Shown: piece by piece, positions 5,219 to 12,651 of the stretch
How the letters are laid out: the number at the start of each line of letters is the position of its first letter
How positions within the stretch are numbered: the stretch's first letter is position 1
Source of the DNA: Kordiimonadales bacterium IMCC3096
Lineage (GTDB): Bacteria; Pseudomonadota; Alphaproteobacteria; Minwuiales; Minwuiaceae
Length of the DNA stretch: 64,000 bases
Direction: 5' to 3'
Assembly: GCA_016865035.1 (NCBI GenBank)
Contig: CP018227.1
Coordinates: forward strand, 1,892,001-1,956,000
The notes under the pieces: model-generated
Told to the model about the DNA's origin: nothing
The model's database searches: none
Seen by the model: only the letters and a program-made list of their open reading frames with translations
Translations under genes and position numbers: made by a program

Positions 5219-6478
5219 CTAGATGGCGAGCAGCGCGTCCTCGAAAGGGAAATCCGACAGCAGTTCGGTGCCGGTTTCGGTGACCAGGATCTGCTGTTCC
5301 AGCTTCACCCCCTCGCCGCCGTCATTGGCACCGATGAAGCTTTCGACGCAGAGGGTCATGCCGGGCAGGATCTCCCCGTCGTAGCCCGCATCGGCGAAAT
5401 CGGCGCGGTGGTAGAGATACGGATACTCCCCGGTCATGCCGCAGCCATGGGCGGAGAGGTAGTAGCGGTGGGCGGCATACTTCTCCGGGATGTCCCAGGC
5501 CCCCTCCGCATAGTCGCGGAAGCTCAGGCCGGGGCGGATCAGGGCCATGTTGTGGTGCACCTGCTCATGCGCCACGCGGTAAAGCTCCCGCTGGGTCGCG
5601 GTCGGTGCGTCGGGTCCGGAATGGAAGGTGCGGGAGAAGTCGGAATAGTAGCCGTGGCAGCCCAGCACATCGGTGTCGAAGGCGATCAGTTCATTGGCCT
5701 GGATGATGCGGGGTCCGGTCTCCTGGAACCATGGATTGGTGCGCGGACCGGAGTTCAGCAGCCGGGTCTCGCAATAGTCGCCATTGCCCGCCACCACCGC
5801 CTGCTGCAGCACCGACCAGAGTTCATTCTCCGAGATGCCGGGCCGGATCGCGCCCCGCATCACGCCGACCGCACGACCGGTCAGGGCGAGGGAGGCACGG
5901 ACGCATTTCACTTCCTCGGCGGACTTGATGGCGCGGGCCAGTTCCACCGGGTGCTGCGCGTCCCGGATGACGAACCCTTCTGCTGCCAGCGCGATGGCCG
6001 AGCCTGCATTCATCCGCTCCAGACCCACGGTCGCGCCCGCACCGACCTCCTGGCGCAGCGTGTCGGCCATCTCCGCCGCCCACAGCCGCTCCCGCGCCGC
6101 GATGTCTGGCCCGGCGGCGACAAAGCTGGCGGTCAGGGCGGGGCGCACCTCGTCAACGGTGTCGAAGCCGTCCGCCAGGTGCATGCAGCCGGTGAACTCG
6201 TACAGGATCGACCGGTCCTGGGTCAGCAGCAGGTAGCGGGAGGCGGCATTGCGGGCACTGAACACCTGCATGTTCCGGGTGCCGGTGGCATAGCGGATGT
6301 TCACCGCGTCCGACAGGATCACGGCGTCGATCCCAGCCAGACGCATCTGTTCGCGAACCCGCCCGCGCCGGTAATGGCGCACCGCGTGCAGGTCGATCCC
6401 GTCCGATTCCGGCGCGGCATCCAGCAAGGCCAGATCGTTCAGGCCCGTGCGGCCCTGATGCCAGTCAAGCTGCGCCAT
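5219..6478 (-). CDS. dddP: DddP-like M24-fold metalloenzyme, probable DMSP lyase
   Basis: A 419-residue protein of the M24 (Xaa-Pro peptidase/creatinase) fold: N-terminal domain to about 180, pita-bread domain after. Potential metal ligands Asp268, Asp270, Asp280, His344, Glu379 and Glu394 match the Roseobacter DddP ligands as I recall them (295, 297, 307, 371, 406, 421) with a constant offset of 27. The 446-residue DddP length is reproduced by the same offset. True aminopeptidases P space these residues differently. DddP cleaves dimethylsulfoniopropionate to dimethyl sulfide and acrylate. The gene is last in a TRAP-transporter cluster, 16 nt after the ThDP gene. Other M24 non-peptidases, such as ectoine hydrolase DoeA, remain possible. 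Confidence 0.65.
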   Translation of the reverse strand: MAQLDWHQGRTGLNDLALLDAAPESDGIDLHAVRHYRRGRVREQMRLAGIDAVILSDAVNIRYATGTRNMQVFSARNAASRYLLLTQDRSILYEFTGCMHLADGFDTVDEVRPALTASFVAAGPDIAARERLWAAEMADTLRQEVGAGATVGLERMNAGSAIALAAEGFVIRDAQHPVELARAIKSAEEVKCVRASLALTGRAVGVMRGAIRPGISENELWSVLQQAVVAGNGDYCETRLLNSGPRTNPWFQETGPRIIQANELIAFDTDVLGCHGYYSDFSRTFHSGPDAPTATQRELYRVAHEQVHHNMALIRPGLSFRDYAEGAWDIPEKYAAHRYYLSAHGCGMTGEYPYLYHRADFADAGYDGEILPGMTLCVESFIGANDGGEGVKLEQQILVTETGTELLSDFPFEDALLAI

Positions 6479-6494
6479 GCAGGCTTCCCGCGTT

Positions 6495-8138
6495 TCAGCC
6501 CTTCAGATCGGCCATGGAGACATAGGCGGAGATGCGTTCCAGGCTGGAGCGGACCTCGACCACCACGGGACCGTCATGGTTCATGGCTTCCGCCACCACG
6601 CGCTCCACGTCATTGTCGTCGCGGATCTTCAGCCCCTTGGCACCGAAGGCTGCGCCCCAGGCGGCGAAGTCCGGATTGACCAGATCGGTCCCCGCCACGG
6701 TGCCGGGGAAGAACTTCTCCTGATGCAGGCGGATGGTGCCATAGGCGCCATTGTTGGAGACGAAGATCTTGATCGGTACCCGCCGCGAGATGGCCGTGGC
6801 GATCTCGTTGCCCGTCATCATCGCGCCGCCGTCGCCCAGGAAGGTGACGATCTGGCGGTCCGGTTCCCGCAGGCCCGCCGCCGCCGCTGCCGGGACACCC
6901 ATGCCCATGGCACCGGAGACCGCGCCGACCATGATCTGCCGCCCGTTCAGGCGCAGGTGGCGGTGCACCCAGCTGGAGAAGTTGCCCGCGTCCGTGACCA
7001 GGATCGCGTCGTCGGCAAGGTGCGGCTTCAGCGCCTCGATCACCATGCCGAAATTGACCCCGTCCTCCGCCGGTTCCGGCGCGCCGCCCATCAGGCGGTC
7101 GACATAGGCCTTCAGCCGTCCGAGCCAGTCGGAGCGGTCGCGTGCGGGCGGTGCCGCGTCGACCAGGGCATCCAGGAAGGCCGCCGGATCGACGGTCAGC
7201 CCGACATCCGCCGCGAAGACACGGCCCACCACATTGGCGTCCGGGTAGACATGCACCAGCGGCTGCTTCGGCGGAATCGAGGGGAAGACATATCCCTGCG
7301 TCGTGGTATCCCCGAGGCGGGTGCCGATGGCGAGAATCAGATCCGCCTCCGACAGCAGATCCACCTGCGGTTTCGGGATGTTGAAGCCCAGATAGCCGGC
7401 ATAGAGCGGGTTGTCGTTGGGGAAGATATCCTGGCGCTTGAAGCTGGTGACGACCGGGATCTGCAGGGCATTCGCGGCACGCAGCATGGCCGCCCGCCCG
7501 CGTTCGCCATCGACCTGGCCGCCGGCGATGACAATCGGTCGCTCCGCCTTGCCCAGCATCTCCGCGACCCGTGCGACATCGGCTTCGGCGGCCCGTGTCT
7601 GCGGCACCGGCATCGGATCCAGCGGTGCGTTCGTGACCTGATCGAACTGCATGTCTTCCGGCAGCACGATGACCACGGGGCCGGGGGTGCCGGAGCTGGC
7701 GATCTGCCAGGCCCGTGCCACGATCTCCGGAATCCGCTCCCCGTCCATGATGGTCCAGACGGCCTTTGCCATGCCGCCGAACATGCGGGAGTAATCGACT
7801 TCCTGGAACGCGCCGCGCCCGATCTCGTCACGGGCGACCTGACCGATGAACAGCACCATCGGCACCGCATCCTGCTCCGCCGTGTGCACGGCGATGGAGG
7901 CGTTGGTGGCACCAGGCCCCCGGCTGACGAAGGCCACGCCGGGGCGGCCAGTCAGCTTGGCGTCGGCGACCGCCATGAATCCGGCCCCGGATTCATGGCG
8001 GGTCTGGACCAGATCGATCCGGTTCTGCCGGGCCAGCGCATCGAGGGTCGCCAGATAGCTCTCCCCCGGCACGCAGAACACCCGGTCCGCCCCCTGCCGT
8101 TCCAGGCAGGCGACCAGCAGTTCCGCCGCACTGGTCAT
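6495..8138 (-). CDS. Thiamine-diphosphate-dependent enzyme, acetolactate synthase superfamily
   Basis: A 547-residue protein with the three-domain ThDP architecture: pyrimidine-binding domain (1-170), central domain (185-330) and pyrophosphate-binding domain (365-530). The catalytic Glu49 sits in TRHESGAGFMAVADAK. The ThDP motif begins GDGG (435-438) and ends NN (462-463). Members decarboxylate or ligate 2-keto acids or split acyl-CoAs; the substrate here is unknown. Its ATG overlaps the permease stop (ATGA at 8135-8138), so translation is coupled to the transporter, suggesting it acts on the imported compound or its product. Confidence 0.88.
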   Translation of the reverse strand: MTSAAELLVACLERQGADRVFCVPGESYLATLDALARQNRIDLVQTRHESGAGFMAVADAKLTGRPGVAFVSRGPGATNASIAVHTAEQDAVPMVLFIGQVARDEIGRGAFQEVDYSRMFGGMAKAVWTIMDGERIPEIVARAWQIASSGTPGPVVIVLPEDMQFDQVTNAPLDPMPVPQTRAAEADVARVAEMLGKAERPIVIAGGQVDGERGRAAMLRAANALQIPVVTSFKRQDIFPNDNPLYAGYLGFNIPKPQVDLLSEADLILAIGTRLGDTTTQGYVFPSIPPKQPLVHVYPDANVVGRVFAADVGLTVDPAAFLDALVDAAPPARDRSDWLGRLKAYVDRLMGGAPEPAEDGVNFGMVIEALKPHLADDAILVTDAGNFSSWVHRHLRLNGRQIMVGAVSGAMGMGVPAAAAAGLREPDRQIVTFLGDGGAMMTGNEIATAISRRVPIKIFVSNNGAYGTIRLHQEKFFPGTVAGTDLVNPDFAAWGAAFGAKGLKIRDDNDVERVVAEAMNHDGPVVVEVRSSLERISAYVSMADLKG

Positions 8139-10186
8139 GCCGACGCTGCCTTGCGCCGATTCAGCATCAGCGCGATCAGCACCGCAGGCACCAGCAGCAC
8201 CAGGGCGGCAATCACCAGCTCCACATGGGTGAAGCCGGTCAGCTTGCCCCCGGGCGCCAGGAACAGGATGGCCGCAACGCCAACTGCTGCCCGGACCGGC
8301 CATTGCAATGTGCCGCCGTTGGTCAGCCGCCCGACACCGATCAGGTACCCCTGCAGCGACGAGGCCATCAGGATGACGCCGACGATCGCGGTGATCGTCA
8401 CGGTCAGCACCTGGGTCACGGTCCCCTGCATGATCAGCCCCGGATTCAGTACGAAGAAGAACGGGATGAAGTAGATCACCGATCCGAGGCGCATGGCCTC
8501 GAAGCCCGTTCGCATCGGGTTCGACCCGGCCAGACTGGCCGCCGCGAAGGCCCCCAGGGCCACCGGAGGCGTGATGAAGGAGAGCATGCCCCAGTAGAGC
8601 ATGAACATGTGCACCGCCATCGGGTTCAGGCCCGACTGGGTCAGCGCCGGAGCCAGAGTGATCGCCAGGATGATGTAGGCGACCGTGACCGTGACACCGA
8701 TGCCCATGATGAAGCTGGCCAGCGCCCCCATGACCAGCAGCAGGATCACGTTGCCGTCCGCCAGGGCGAGCAATTCGCTCGCCAGGGTGGAGACCTTGCC
8801 GGTGAGCGACAGGGCACCGACGATCATGCCGATACCGGCCAGGATCGCCGCCAGTTCCGCAAACAGCCGGCCGACACCGATGATGAAGGTACCGACATTG
8901 GCCATCTTCCAGCGGGTACCGGCATTGATCTGGTTGATCGCGATCAGCAGCGCGGTGGCGTAGTAGGGGGCCAGTGCCTCCCGCTGCAGGTACAGCAGCA
9001 TGAAGACCAGCAGCGCGAAGACGAAGACATAGTGCCAGCCCTCCCGCAGTGTGTCGCTGACCCGGGGCATCTCTTCCTTGGGCAGACCCTGCAGGCCGGT
9101 ACGGGCCGCGTAGGAGTCGATCTGCATGAACAGGCCGAAGAAGTACAGGAACGACGGAATCGTCGCCGCGATGATGATCTCCGAATAGGGCACGTTCAGG
9201 TAGATCGCCATGATGAAGGCGGTCGCACCCATGATCGGCGGCATCAGCACGCCACCGGTAGAGGCACAGGCCTCGACACCCGCCGCATAGTGCGGCTTGA
9301 ATCCGGTCCGCTTCATGGCCGGGATCGACAGGGCGCCGGTGGTCATCACGTTGGTGATGACGCTGCCGCTCATGGAGCCCATCAGGCCCGACGAGAAGAT
9401 CGCGACCTTCGCAGGACCGCCGCGCACATGGCCGAGCAGGGCAAAGGCGAGGTTCAGGAAGAACTTGCCGCCGCCGGTGTGCTGCAGCGCCACGCCGAAC
9501 ATCAGGAAGCCGATGACCAGATTCGCGAAGGCGCGGAACGGGATGCCGAGGATCGATTCGGACGAGATGGCGTGATAGCCGAACGTGTTGCCGAAGGGCT
9601 CGTTCTCGAAGGTCTCGAACGGTTCCGGCAGGAATTCGCCATAGGTCGGGTACAGCGAGAATATCAGGACAATGAGGGCAACGACGGGGCCGGCGGACCG
9701 GCGCGTGGCCTCGAGCACCAGCACCCAGAGAATGCCACCGGCAATCTGGATATGGCCCGGCGCGCCATACTCCCAGCCCAGGTTCACGATGTCCCGGGCA
9801 TAGTAGAACAGGTAGGCGTTCACCCCGATGGAGGCGAGAATCAGCAGGATGTCGAACCCGAACAGCGCGCGGTCCGTGGCGGTCTCGGAGCCGGGACGCG
9901 TCGGCCGGAGTGGGAAGACAAGCAGGCACAGCGGCAGCAGCAGCGCCAGCAGTGCGAAGAAATACTGTGTATCGATCGGCACGTAGCCGAACGTGTGGCC
10001 GAGGTTGAAGAGCTTGTAGATCGACATGGCCACGGTCAGCACCGTGATGATCACAAGCAGTGCACGCCAGAACGGCGAAAGTGGCCGATACCGGAACTCG
10101 GTATCGGCCACCTGCATCGTCTGACCGTCGGAGCCGGCGGGACCCTTTCCGGGTCCCGCCGGTACATCACCAGCGGTCTGGTTCAC
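8135..10186 (-). CDS. TRAP transporter permease, fused small and large subunits (TAXI type)
   Basis: A 683-residue inner-membrane protein joining a 4-TM DctQ-like region (about 35-190) to a 12-TM DctM-like region (about 200-640), the form that pairs with TAXI binding proteins. Typical segments are GSMSGSVITNVMTTGALSIP and GVLMPPIMGATAFIM. It drives Na+-coupled uptake of an organic solute delivered by the periplasmic protein encoded upstream. The start is uncertain: GTG at 10186 lies 13 nt after the binding-protein stop, whereas ATG at 10117 would place a strong hairpin (10134-10162) between the genes. Neither has a good Shine-Dalgarno. Confidence 0.9.
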   Translation of the reverse strand: MNQTAGDVPAGPGKGPAGSDGQTMQVADTEFRYRPLSPFWRALLVIITVLTVAMSIYKLFNLGHTFGYVPIDTQYFFALLALLLPLCLLVFPLRPTRPGSETATDRALFGFDILLILASIGVNAYLFYYARDIVNLGWEYGAPGHIQIAGGILWVLVLEATRRSAGPVVALIVLIFSLYPTYGEFLPEPFETFENEPFGNTFGYHAISSESILGIPFRAFANLVIGFLMFGVALQHTGGGKFFLNLAFALLGHVRGGPAKVAIFSSGLMGSMSGSVITNVMTTGALSIPAMKRTGFKPHYAAGVEACASTGGVLMPPIMGATAFIMAIYLNVPYSEIIIAATIPSFLYFFGLFMQIDSYAARTGLQGLPKEEMPRVSDTLREGWHYVFVFALLVFMLLYLQREALAPYYATALLIAINQINAGTRWKMANVGTFIIGVGRLFAELAAILAGIGMIVGALSLTGKVSTLASELLALADGNVILLLVMGALASFIMGIGVTVTVAYIILAITLAPALTQSGLNPMAVHMFMLYWGMLSFITPPVALGAFAAASLAGSNPMRTGFEAMRLGSVIYFIPFFFVLNPGLIMQGTVTQVLTVTITAIVGVILMASSLQGYLIGVGRLTNGGTLQWPVRAAVGVAAILFLAPGGKLTGFTHVELVIAALVLLVPAVLIALMLNRRKAASA
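10134..10162 (-). promoter_or_regulatory. Strong hairpin at the binding protein-permease junction
   Basis: A perfect 12-bp inverted repeat with a 5-nt loop (CCGGCGGGACCC on both strands). A second perfect 12-bp repeat follows at 10081-10111 (GTGGCCGATACC, 7-nt loop). Placed just after the binding-protein gene, the first could stabilise the upstream mRNA or attenuate read-through, giving more binding protein than permease. Confidence 0.5.
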
Positions 10187-10199
10187 GATTCGTCAGCCG

Positions 10200-11345
10200 T
10201 CACTCGAAGACAACAGGCATGCCGGCACCGGACAGCGCCTTGGCACGGATCGGCAGCCACTTGGCCGAGATGTCTTCCGGGCTCATGCCGGACACGTCGC
10301 CCAGGGACTTCCAGGCGTCCATGATGATCTGCTGGCGCTTGATCAGCATGTCGTTGTTGGCCTGTGCCTCGTCGGTCCAGATACCCGCTTCCTTGAAGTA
10401 ACGGATGGTGCCCTCATGATACGGCATGCCCCAGACCAGGGTCTGGTTGGCCAGGGCCCAGCCGGCACCACCCGGTGCTGCGTCCTTGTACTTGTCGAAC
10501 TGGTCCACGATGGCCTTGGTCAGCGCATAGACCTCATCGGCATCGCGGTCGCTGTTCGTGACCAGGATCGGGTACGGATAGACGTAACCGGCATGCGGCT
10601 TCTCGGCAGAGATGTCCGCACCGCGGGTCGCGACATGCTGCAGGGCCACCGGATGCGCCTTGTTCAGACGTTCCCAGCCAGCCTTGTCATCCGCCGGCAG
10701 CGGCGGCCAGTGAATGCCACGCGGGCTGGCGGCGAGCCGCTGTGCATGCGGGGTGATGGTGGACATGAAGGCCGCATCGGACTGGCCATTGATGATCGCA
10801 TCGATCGACGCCTTGAAACCCGAGACCTCGACCTTCTGCACGTCATCCCAGGTCAGGCCGGCGAAGGCCATGTTGGCCGCGGCATTCCAGTTCAGTGCAT
10901 CACCGCCGACGACATAGGACACGCGCTTGCCCTTCAGGTCGGCCATGGTCGCGATGCCGGCATCCTTTGCTGTCGCCAGACTGAGATTGTTCTCACCGAC
11001 GGCGGTCAGGACGACACGCAGCGGCTGCGGGCCCCATTCGCCGGACGCGAACAGGAAGGTGCCTTCCTGGCCGAAGAACGCGGCGATACCACAGGCGCAG
11101 TAGTCGGCCTTGCCATCACGCAGCGGCGCCATGCGGGACACGTCGTTCTTGCCCGGAATGACGCGCATCTTGGTGCCATAGGCTTCGCTCAGCGCATTGC
11201 CGATGGCGACCGACTGGGCATAGCCGGAGGCGGTGGTGCCATAGGCGGTCCAGGTCATCTTCTCCGGCAGACCGTCAGCCATTGCGGCGGAAGCGGCGAG
11301 GCTCATCGCACCGGCGAAGGCCGCTGCTTTCACATAGGTTTTCAT
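10200..11345 (-). CDS. TAXI-family TRAP transporter periplasmic binding protein
   Basis: A 381-residue secreted protein. The signal peptide spans residues 1-21 and ends ASAAMA. The body matches the TAXI family: an early YGTTASGYAQSVAIGNALSE, then LKGKRVSYVVGGDALNWNAA and a C-terminal SAKWLPIRAKALSGAG. It captures the solute for the fused permease downstream. The start is the ATG at 11345, preceded by GGGAGGAA; a longer frame to 11492 lacks this site and would bury the signal peptide. First gene of the four-gene cluster. Confidence 0.9.
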   Translation of the reverse strand: MKTYVKAAAFAGAMSLAASAAMADGLPEKMTWTAYGTTASGYAQSVAIGNALSEAYGTKMRVIPGKNDVSRMAPLRDGKADYCACGIAAFFGQEGTFLFASGEWGPQPLRVVLTAVGENNLSLATAKDAGIATMADLKGKRVSYVVGGDALNWNAAANMAFAGLTWDDVQKVEVSGFKASIDAIINGQSDAAFMSTITPHAQRLAASPRGIHWPPLPADDKAGWERLNKAHPVALQHVATRGADISAEKPHAGYVYPYPILVTNSDRDADEVYALTKAIVDQFDKYKDAAPGGAGWALANQTLVWGMPYHEGTIRYFKEAGIWTDEAQANNDMLIKRQQIIMDAWKSLGDVSGMSPEDISAKWLPIRAKALSGAGMPVVFE

Positions 11346-11607: not shown

Positions 11608-12651
11608 GTGGGAACAGCAGGCGCGATGGTGCGCCCCATATGGCGACTTGCGCAGGCCGTTGCCGTGCTTGCGCTGCTCGTGACGGTGCCGCGACAGGCC
11701 TTGGCACAGCCCGATCCGGTCTGCGAACTGGACCGGCCGCTGGTCATGGCGGACCTGCCCTGGGCGTCGAATGCCTTTCACGTGGCGGTCGTCCGGCGCA
11801 TCGTCGAGACCGGGTTCGGCTGTACCACCGACGTTCTCACCGGGGCCACGCTGCCCCTCTTCAATGCGATGAAGGCCGGCAGGCTGGATGTGACCATGGA
11901 GGTCTGGAAGGCCAACTTCCCGGACCAGTGGGCGGATGCAGTGCAGACGGGCAAGGTCGTGGAACTGGGCATCAACTTCGATGATGCGAGCCAGGGCTGG
12001 TACGTGCCGGCCTGGCTGGTGCAGGGGCCGGATGCCCCGGCGTCGGACCTGAAGGCCGTATCGGACCTGCCCCGCCACAAGGATCTGTTCAGCGATCCCG
12101 AGCAGCGCCACAAGGGGCGGTTCTACAACTGCAGTCTCGGCTGGGCCTGCGAGGCGGTGAACACCCGCAAGCTGCACGCCTATGGTCTGGCCGATGCCTT
12201 CACCAATTTCCGGCCCGCGAACGGGGATGCCCTGGCTGAGGCCATCGGCGAGAACTACCGGCGCAAGCGCCCCTTTCTCGCCTATTACTGGGCACCGACC
12301 TGGGTATTGGGCACCTATGACCTGGTCCGGCTGGAGGAACCGGCGCACGATCCGGAGATATGGCAGGCGATGATGTCGAGCCGCCGGCCGGCGCAGGCGA
12401 CGGCCTATCCGCAGTCGCATGTCAGTGTGGGTGTGCAGGCCGGGCTGATGGCGGAAGCACCTTCGCTGGTGGCCTTCCTCCGGCGCTATCACACCAGCAG
12501 CGCGCTGGTATCCGAGGTGCTGGCGCATCAGCGGCTCTACGGCCTGACAGCGGCCGGGACAGCGGACTGGTTCCTGCGCCGACAGGTCGGGGTCTGGTCC
12601 GGATGGGTGCCGGAGGCCGTGGCGGCGCGGGTGCTGGCGGCACTCGGGTAG
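11608..12651 (+). CDS. Orphan glycine betaine/proline-type ABC substrate-binding protein (OpuAC family)
   Basis: A 347-residue secreted protein with a signal peptide to about residue 34 (AVAVLALLVTVPRQALAQ). The OpuAC/ProX domain includes VVRRIVETGFGCTTDVLTGA, KAGRLDVTMEVWKANFPDQW and, later, YYWAPTWVLGTYDLVRLEEP, rich in the aromatics that form quaternary-amine boxes. The start is GTG at 11608, 6 nt after AGGAG. No cognate permease or ATPase is adjacent. It is divergent from the TAXI-TRAP cluster by 262 bp. Betaines and the betaine analogue DMSP are plausible ligands, by family and context only. Confidence 0.85.
   Translation: MGTAGAMVRPIWRLAQAVAVLALLVTVPRQALAQPDPVCELDRPLVMADLPWASNAFHVAVVRRIVETGFGCTTDVLTGATLPLFNAMKAGRLDVTMEVWKANFPDQWADAVQTGKVVELGINFDDASQGWYVPAWLVQGPDAPASDLKAVSDLPRHKDLFSDPEQRHKGRFYNCSLGWACEAVNTRKLHAYGLADAFTNFRPANGDALAEAIGENYRRKRPFLAYYWAPTWVLGTYDLVRLEEPAHDPEIWQAMMSSRRPAQATAYPQSHVSVGVQAGLMAEAPSLVAFLRRYHTSSALVSEVLAHQRLYGLTAAGTADWFLRRQVGVWSGWVPEAVAARVLAALG

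Follow-up and report, generated by a model that had tools for sequence, protein, structure and literature searches.

A glycine-type clade of DddP-like M24 proteins, represented in Minwuia, with a betaine-like compound as candidate substrate

What does a DddP-like gene encode when it lies beside a TAXI-TRAP transporter and a ThDP enzyme? DddP is a marine enzyme that produces dimethyl sulfide (DMS), and no other family of bacterial DMSP lyase genes is reported to be as widely distributed among marine genomes (PMC5395565). An earlier note on this DNA had proposed either a DMSP lyase, with the transporter and the ThDP enzyme as new partners, or a DddP-related enzyme acting on another substrate. 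The window, that is the whole stretch of 64,000 nucleotides that was analysed, comes from a 4.29 Mb genome in a single contig; among its named relatives, Minwuia assemblies are the nearest (92-95% identity).

The M24 gene and the TAXI-TRAP-ThDP module

The features on which the argument turns are the following:

5219..6478, minus strand: DddP-like M24 metalloenzyme of 419 amino acids (PF00557 and PF01321); its best matches in sequence and fold are DddP structures
5297..5677, minus strand: stretch with six predicted metal ligands, D268, D270, D280, H344, E379 and E394, from alignment with RlDddP at an offset of 27 (ligand roles from PMC4108388)
5420..5449, minus strand: HGCGMTGEYP motif, in which alignments place Gly350 at the position of DddP Asp377 (His in prolidase)
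6495..8138, minus strand: ThDP enzyme of the acetolactate-synthase superfamily, PRK08199 subfamily (617.9 bits, cut-off 539), part of the TAXI-TRAP-ThDP module
8135..10186, minus strand: fused TRAP permease (TIGR02123, 566 bits), in ATGA overlap with the ThDP start
10200..11345, minus strand: TAXI-type TRAP solute-binding protein (TIGR02122, 210 bits), its start set at the ATG preceding the signal peptide
11608..12651, plus strand: OpuAC betaine-type solute-binding protein (PF04069), divergent from the TAXI gene

The gene order read previously, namely TAXI, fused TRAP permease, ThDP enzyme and M24, all on the minus strand, proved correct, as did the position of the M24 gene downstream of the ThDP enzyme and the ATGA junction between the latter and the permease. 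The gap between the ThDP and M24 genes is 16 bases.

Is this arrangement a pathway? The M24 protein might hydrolyse a compound carried by TAXI-TRAP and handled by the ThDP enzyme, in a true three-part route of Minwuia. The common strand and the short gap after the ThDP gene would agree with this, and the order is retained in four Minwuia genomes (G000, G005, G006 and G008), which are the only ones where M24 adjoins ThDP. However, the TAXI-TRAP-ThDP block is present without an adjoining M24 gene in the related genomes G002, G003, G004 and G007, usually with an OpuAC gene (which adjoins the TAXI-TRAP module at L085, L086 and L087), and two of these, G003 and G007, carry their M24 orthologue (75-76% identity) elsewhere in the genome. 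In G004 synteny is kept, but the position that M24 has in the other Minwuia genomes is occupied by another ThDP-type gene, which is divergent (30% identity; L085, 11388-13010). Neither a ThDP nor a TAXI gene was found near M24 at the named loci from other genera. We therefore consider the three-part pathway unlikely. The 'operon' is a genus-level juxtaposition, seen in Minwuia only, and the TAXI-TRAP-ThDP block is an older, independent module and poor evidence of a pathway shared with M24. The pathway partners suggested earlier are thus weakened, module and M24 each occurring without the other. The juxtaposition may matter within Minwuia, but it gives no ground for deducing what the enzyme does in general.

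Kinship with DddP and the missing aspartate

A phmmer search of all PDB sequences placed four DddP chains at the top (E-values of 1e-65 to 1e-67), followed by prolidases at 1e-14. The DddP match spans residues 26-418 of the M24 protein, and its E-value, about 1e-66, rules out chance similarity. The same four DddP structures are the best fold matches of the predicted AlphaFold model (mean pLDDT 75.6), with a TM-score of 0.85 and 32% identity; residues 345-352 of this model have a pLDDT under 50, so that it leaves the active-site geometry unseen. A maximum-likelihood tree was built from 85 proteins, with the M24 proteins of this same genome (peptidase, DoeA) as a long-branched outgroup. The DddP-like proteins, including that of the window, split from this outgroup at 100/100. 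A grouping with DoeA or peptidases was the outcome that the earlier note had set against its reading, and the tree places the protein with the DddP-like sequences instead. By sequence, predicted fold and tree, the M24 protein belongs with DddP. Within this branch, it falls in a clade of 15 members (support 100/99) outside the 60-member clade that contains DddP (99/100).

Two further groups were observed among the DddP-like proteins. Other Minwuia genomes hold an extra paralogue with the aspartate of DddP at position 377, 40-42% identical (L016, L018 and L020). A distant group on a long branch (L094, L095 and L096) shows the motif HQAGLEDEGP and possibly has another new function.

The likeness to DddP (NCBIfam NF043017; structures 4b28, 4rzy, 4s00 and 4s01) extends to the two-domain M24 fold, the SGPRTNPWFQE motif, Tyr366, a Phe at the position of the first peptidase histidine, and the six metal ligands, with Asp297 as the additional one among them. 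Residues D268, D270, D280, H344, E379 and E394 correspond to D295, D297, D307, H371, E406 and E421 of RlDddP, with a constant offset of 27, as in the earlier note, and the identity of the six ligands in DddP is confirmed in PMC4108388. The difference in overall length, claimed to be 27 residues as well, is actually 28 when measured on the 447-residue PDB chain. This DDDHEE ligand set is found in 90 of 90 proteins of the close clade and in 67 of 71 other DddP-like proteins; all but four of the 161 superfamily sequences thus have the six ligands. Tyr339, the equivalent of the Tyr366 that sits above the metals in DddP, is likewise kept in 90 of 90 members of the M24 clade. The M24 protein most likely binds two metal ions through the six ligands of DddP, judging from these alignments. 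As a superfamily-wide trait, however, the ligands are no mark of a DMSP lyase.

The differences concern the catalytic positions. Tyr366 and Asp377 were called invariant among DddP lyases, and Asp377 was preferred as the base (PMC4108388). In DddP, an aspartate is described as taking the alpha proton, and Asp and Phe occupy the positions of two histidines that M24 peptidases have (PMC5395565). When the M24 protein, both DddPs and a prolidase are aligned, Asp377 falls on the second catalytic-site His of prolidase, the motif is free of gaps, and the M24 protein presents Gly350 at this position. Position 377 is Asp in 12 of 12 DddP sequences and Gly in all 16 close orthologues (63-95% identity) that were collected by unbiased protein searches. 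The count rises to 90 of 90 once named genomes are added, although this larger figure is biased, as the named set was fetched partly through a Gly-containing pattern. Orthologues in this identity range are present in many genomes, and the Gly-type proteins form a distinct, widespread clade among the DddP-like members of the M24 'pita-bread' enzymes. Two tryptophans also differ: Trp379 is replaced by Tyr352 in the M24 protein, and Trp95, which is invariant in the 12 DddPs and which we take to be the sulfur-binding tryptophan, corresponds to Phe73 in 90 of 90 members of the M24 clade. Finally, the M24 protein reaches only 298.1 bits with the NCBIfam DddP model, against a cut-off of 600. Its identity to RlDddP is 33% (the comparison covered the two crystallised DddPs), which is under the filter of at least 40% identity to a ratified DddP applied in PMC10686828, and its gene neighbours are different as well.

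Could the protein still be a genuine lyase of DMSP (or DMSOP) that has diverged, with another residue such as Tyr339 or Glu351 acting in place of Asp377? The fold, the six ligands and Tyr366 are common to both proteins, Tyr366 itself has been proposed as an alternative base (PMC4108388), the fungal FgDddP yields DMS at only 32% identity to RdDddP, and many orthologues come from marine bacteria. Another base could in principle still permit beta-elimination. However, an aspartate described as invariant in DddP lyases is Gly across the whole clade, and Glu351 offers no compensation, as it occurs in Asp-type DddPs too. The Phe at the place of Trp95 and the low family score also stand against a lyase, as does the presence in the same genome of two proteins of the cupin DMSP-lyase family (PF16867; 158.8 and 136.5 bits, above the Pfam cut-off). 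We regard a divergent lyase as quite improbable. Function as a DMSP lyase, the first reading of the earlier note, is thus abandoned as the likeliest one, on the Asp377 to Gly350 change and a score half of the family cut-off, to which the Trp95 to Phe73 change and the position outside the DddP-containing clade are added; the M24 protein probably does not work as a DMSP lyase in the way that DddP does. The two cupin proteins are encoded at G000:C1:299133-299624 (L214) and G000:C1:3343611-3344081 (L215), and neither receives an NCBIfam name. A DmdA-like protein is also encoded in this genome, slightly below its cut-off (387.5 versus 410 bits).

An Xaa-Pro type peptidase or another ectoine hydrolase (DoeA) would share the M24 fold, and relatives of the protein are named 'Xaa-Pro peptidase family protein' in public records. 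Xaa-Pro dipeptidases and aminopeptidases have five of the six ligands in common with the M24 protein, which differs from them in its extra Asp270 and its separate clade. In addition, Phe251 and Gly350 stand where M24 peptidases have their two substrate-binding histidines (besides the metal His). The score with the DoeA model TIGR02993 is 34.5 bits, against a cut-off of 613, whereas a true DoeA is found elsewhere in the same genome (674.6 bits); DoeA/EutD structures (6twj, 6twk) share the M24 fold at 20-21% identity by fold alignment. Profile scores, fold, sequence and the tree split separate this protein from DoeA and peptidases, and both readings are very unlikely and were set aside on the scores, the tree and the absent histidines. 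The absence of the known catalytic base might also suggest a DddP homologue that has lost catalysis and serves in binding or regulation. This is scarcely credible, since the six ligands and the clade-wide invariant residues are kept across phyla, unlike what is expected from the decay of a dead enzyme.

Neighbourhoods in other bacteria and a candidate substrate

The Gly-type clade is found in marine Rhodobacterales, Hyphomicrobiales, Halomonas and Acidimicrobiia, and we compared M24 neighbourhoods at 80 named loci (32 from Rhodobacterales, 22 from Hyphomicrobiales, the others from Halomonas, Acidimicrobiia and further groups). Most of these loci come without an informative partner. The commonest neighbour is a divergent LysR gene directly upstream (33 of 80 loci), whose best models, below cut-off, are those of GcvA and of the regulator of choline-sulfate utilisation. 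At 13 of the 80 loci, M24 has a betaine or methylamine gene within 3.5 kb (MttB at eight, a DMGDH-like DAO-GcvT demethylase at six, OpuAC at four and BCCT at one); the far-flank control gave seven loci with such a gene, but over more sequence. Several of these neighbours are close to M24 and on the same strand, such as the MttB-M24-DAO/GcvT arrangement of Oricola (L175) and the M24-OpuAC-permease-ATPase arrangement of Loktanella (L189). Relatives from Sinorhizobium and Shinella (45-46% identity) occur with MttB, FAD oxidoreductase, GlxA and betaine ABC genes. GbdR-type regulators were dropped as partners, being mostly distant (two near, seven far), and acyl-CoA ligases, kinases, EAL proteins and other neighbours seen at single loci were set aside as they did not recur.

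Some observations concern the placement of demethylation genes. In Nitratireductor (L141), a DAO-GcvT gene lies between two Gly-type M24 copies. No demethylation gene adjoins M24 in Minwuia. In the genome of the window, an MttB-family methyltransferase sits beside a DAO-GcvT protein about 60 kb from M24 (L213 and L221, G000:C1:1836061-1837563 and 1833634-1834593).

What, then, may the enzyme cleave? As both peptidase histidines and the aspartate of DddP are absent, a peptidase is improbable, and so is a DMSP lyase of the DddP mechanism. The reading that we favour, with modest confidence, is that of a separate and widespread clade of DddP-related metalloenzymes cleaving an N-methylated, betaine-like compound, whose substrate, chemistry and metals we infer. 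The fallback of the earlier note, a DddP-related enzyme with another substrate, is thus the best fit, the substrate itself being our deduction. In a metal-dependent reaction, the enzyme would cleave a small, zwitterionic compound that carries N-methyl groups; the metals would bind the carboxylate of this substrate and activate water. This cleavage would be one step in a catabolic route that, in other bacteria, might involve uptake of betaine- or choline-type compounds, an MttB-family methyltransferase and a folate-linked N-demethylating oxidase. Creatinase (1chm, 1kp0, 7yto), which has the M24 fold and hydrolyses a small N-methylated compound without being a peptidase, offers a plausible functional analogy, although its match is far weaker than that of DddP by sequence and by fold (about 19% identity by fold alignment).

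A broader view, which we put forward only tentatively and hold to be on the doubtful side, is that the Gly-type clade would be an uncharacterised family cleaving an abundant quaternary-ammonium osmolyte, the nitrogen counterpart of DMSP, with the metal site of DddP and a different base. DddP would then be a single branch, specialised in sulfur compounds, within a larger family of enzymes that degrade betaines. In the open-access literature on M24 with MttB or betaine, we came across no Gly-type protein that has been characterised.

The gene dddP reportedly represents about 65% of ocean ddd genes (PMC10686828). Surveys based on loose homology could count the large Gly-type sister clade, with the same metal site and no catalytic Asp, as dddP, and a check of residue 377 would help to tell dddP from its relatives. 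The Gly-type clade is also a testable candidate for an unknown step of betaine or methylamine breakdown in marine bacteria.
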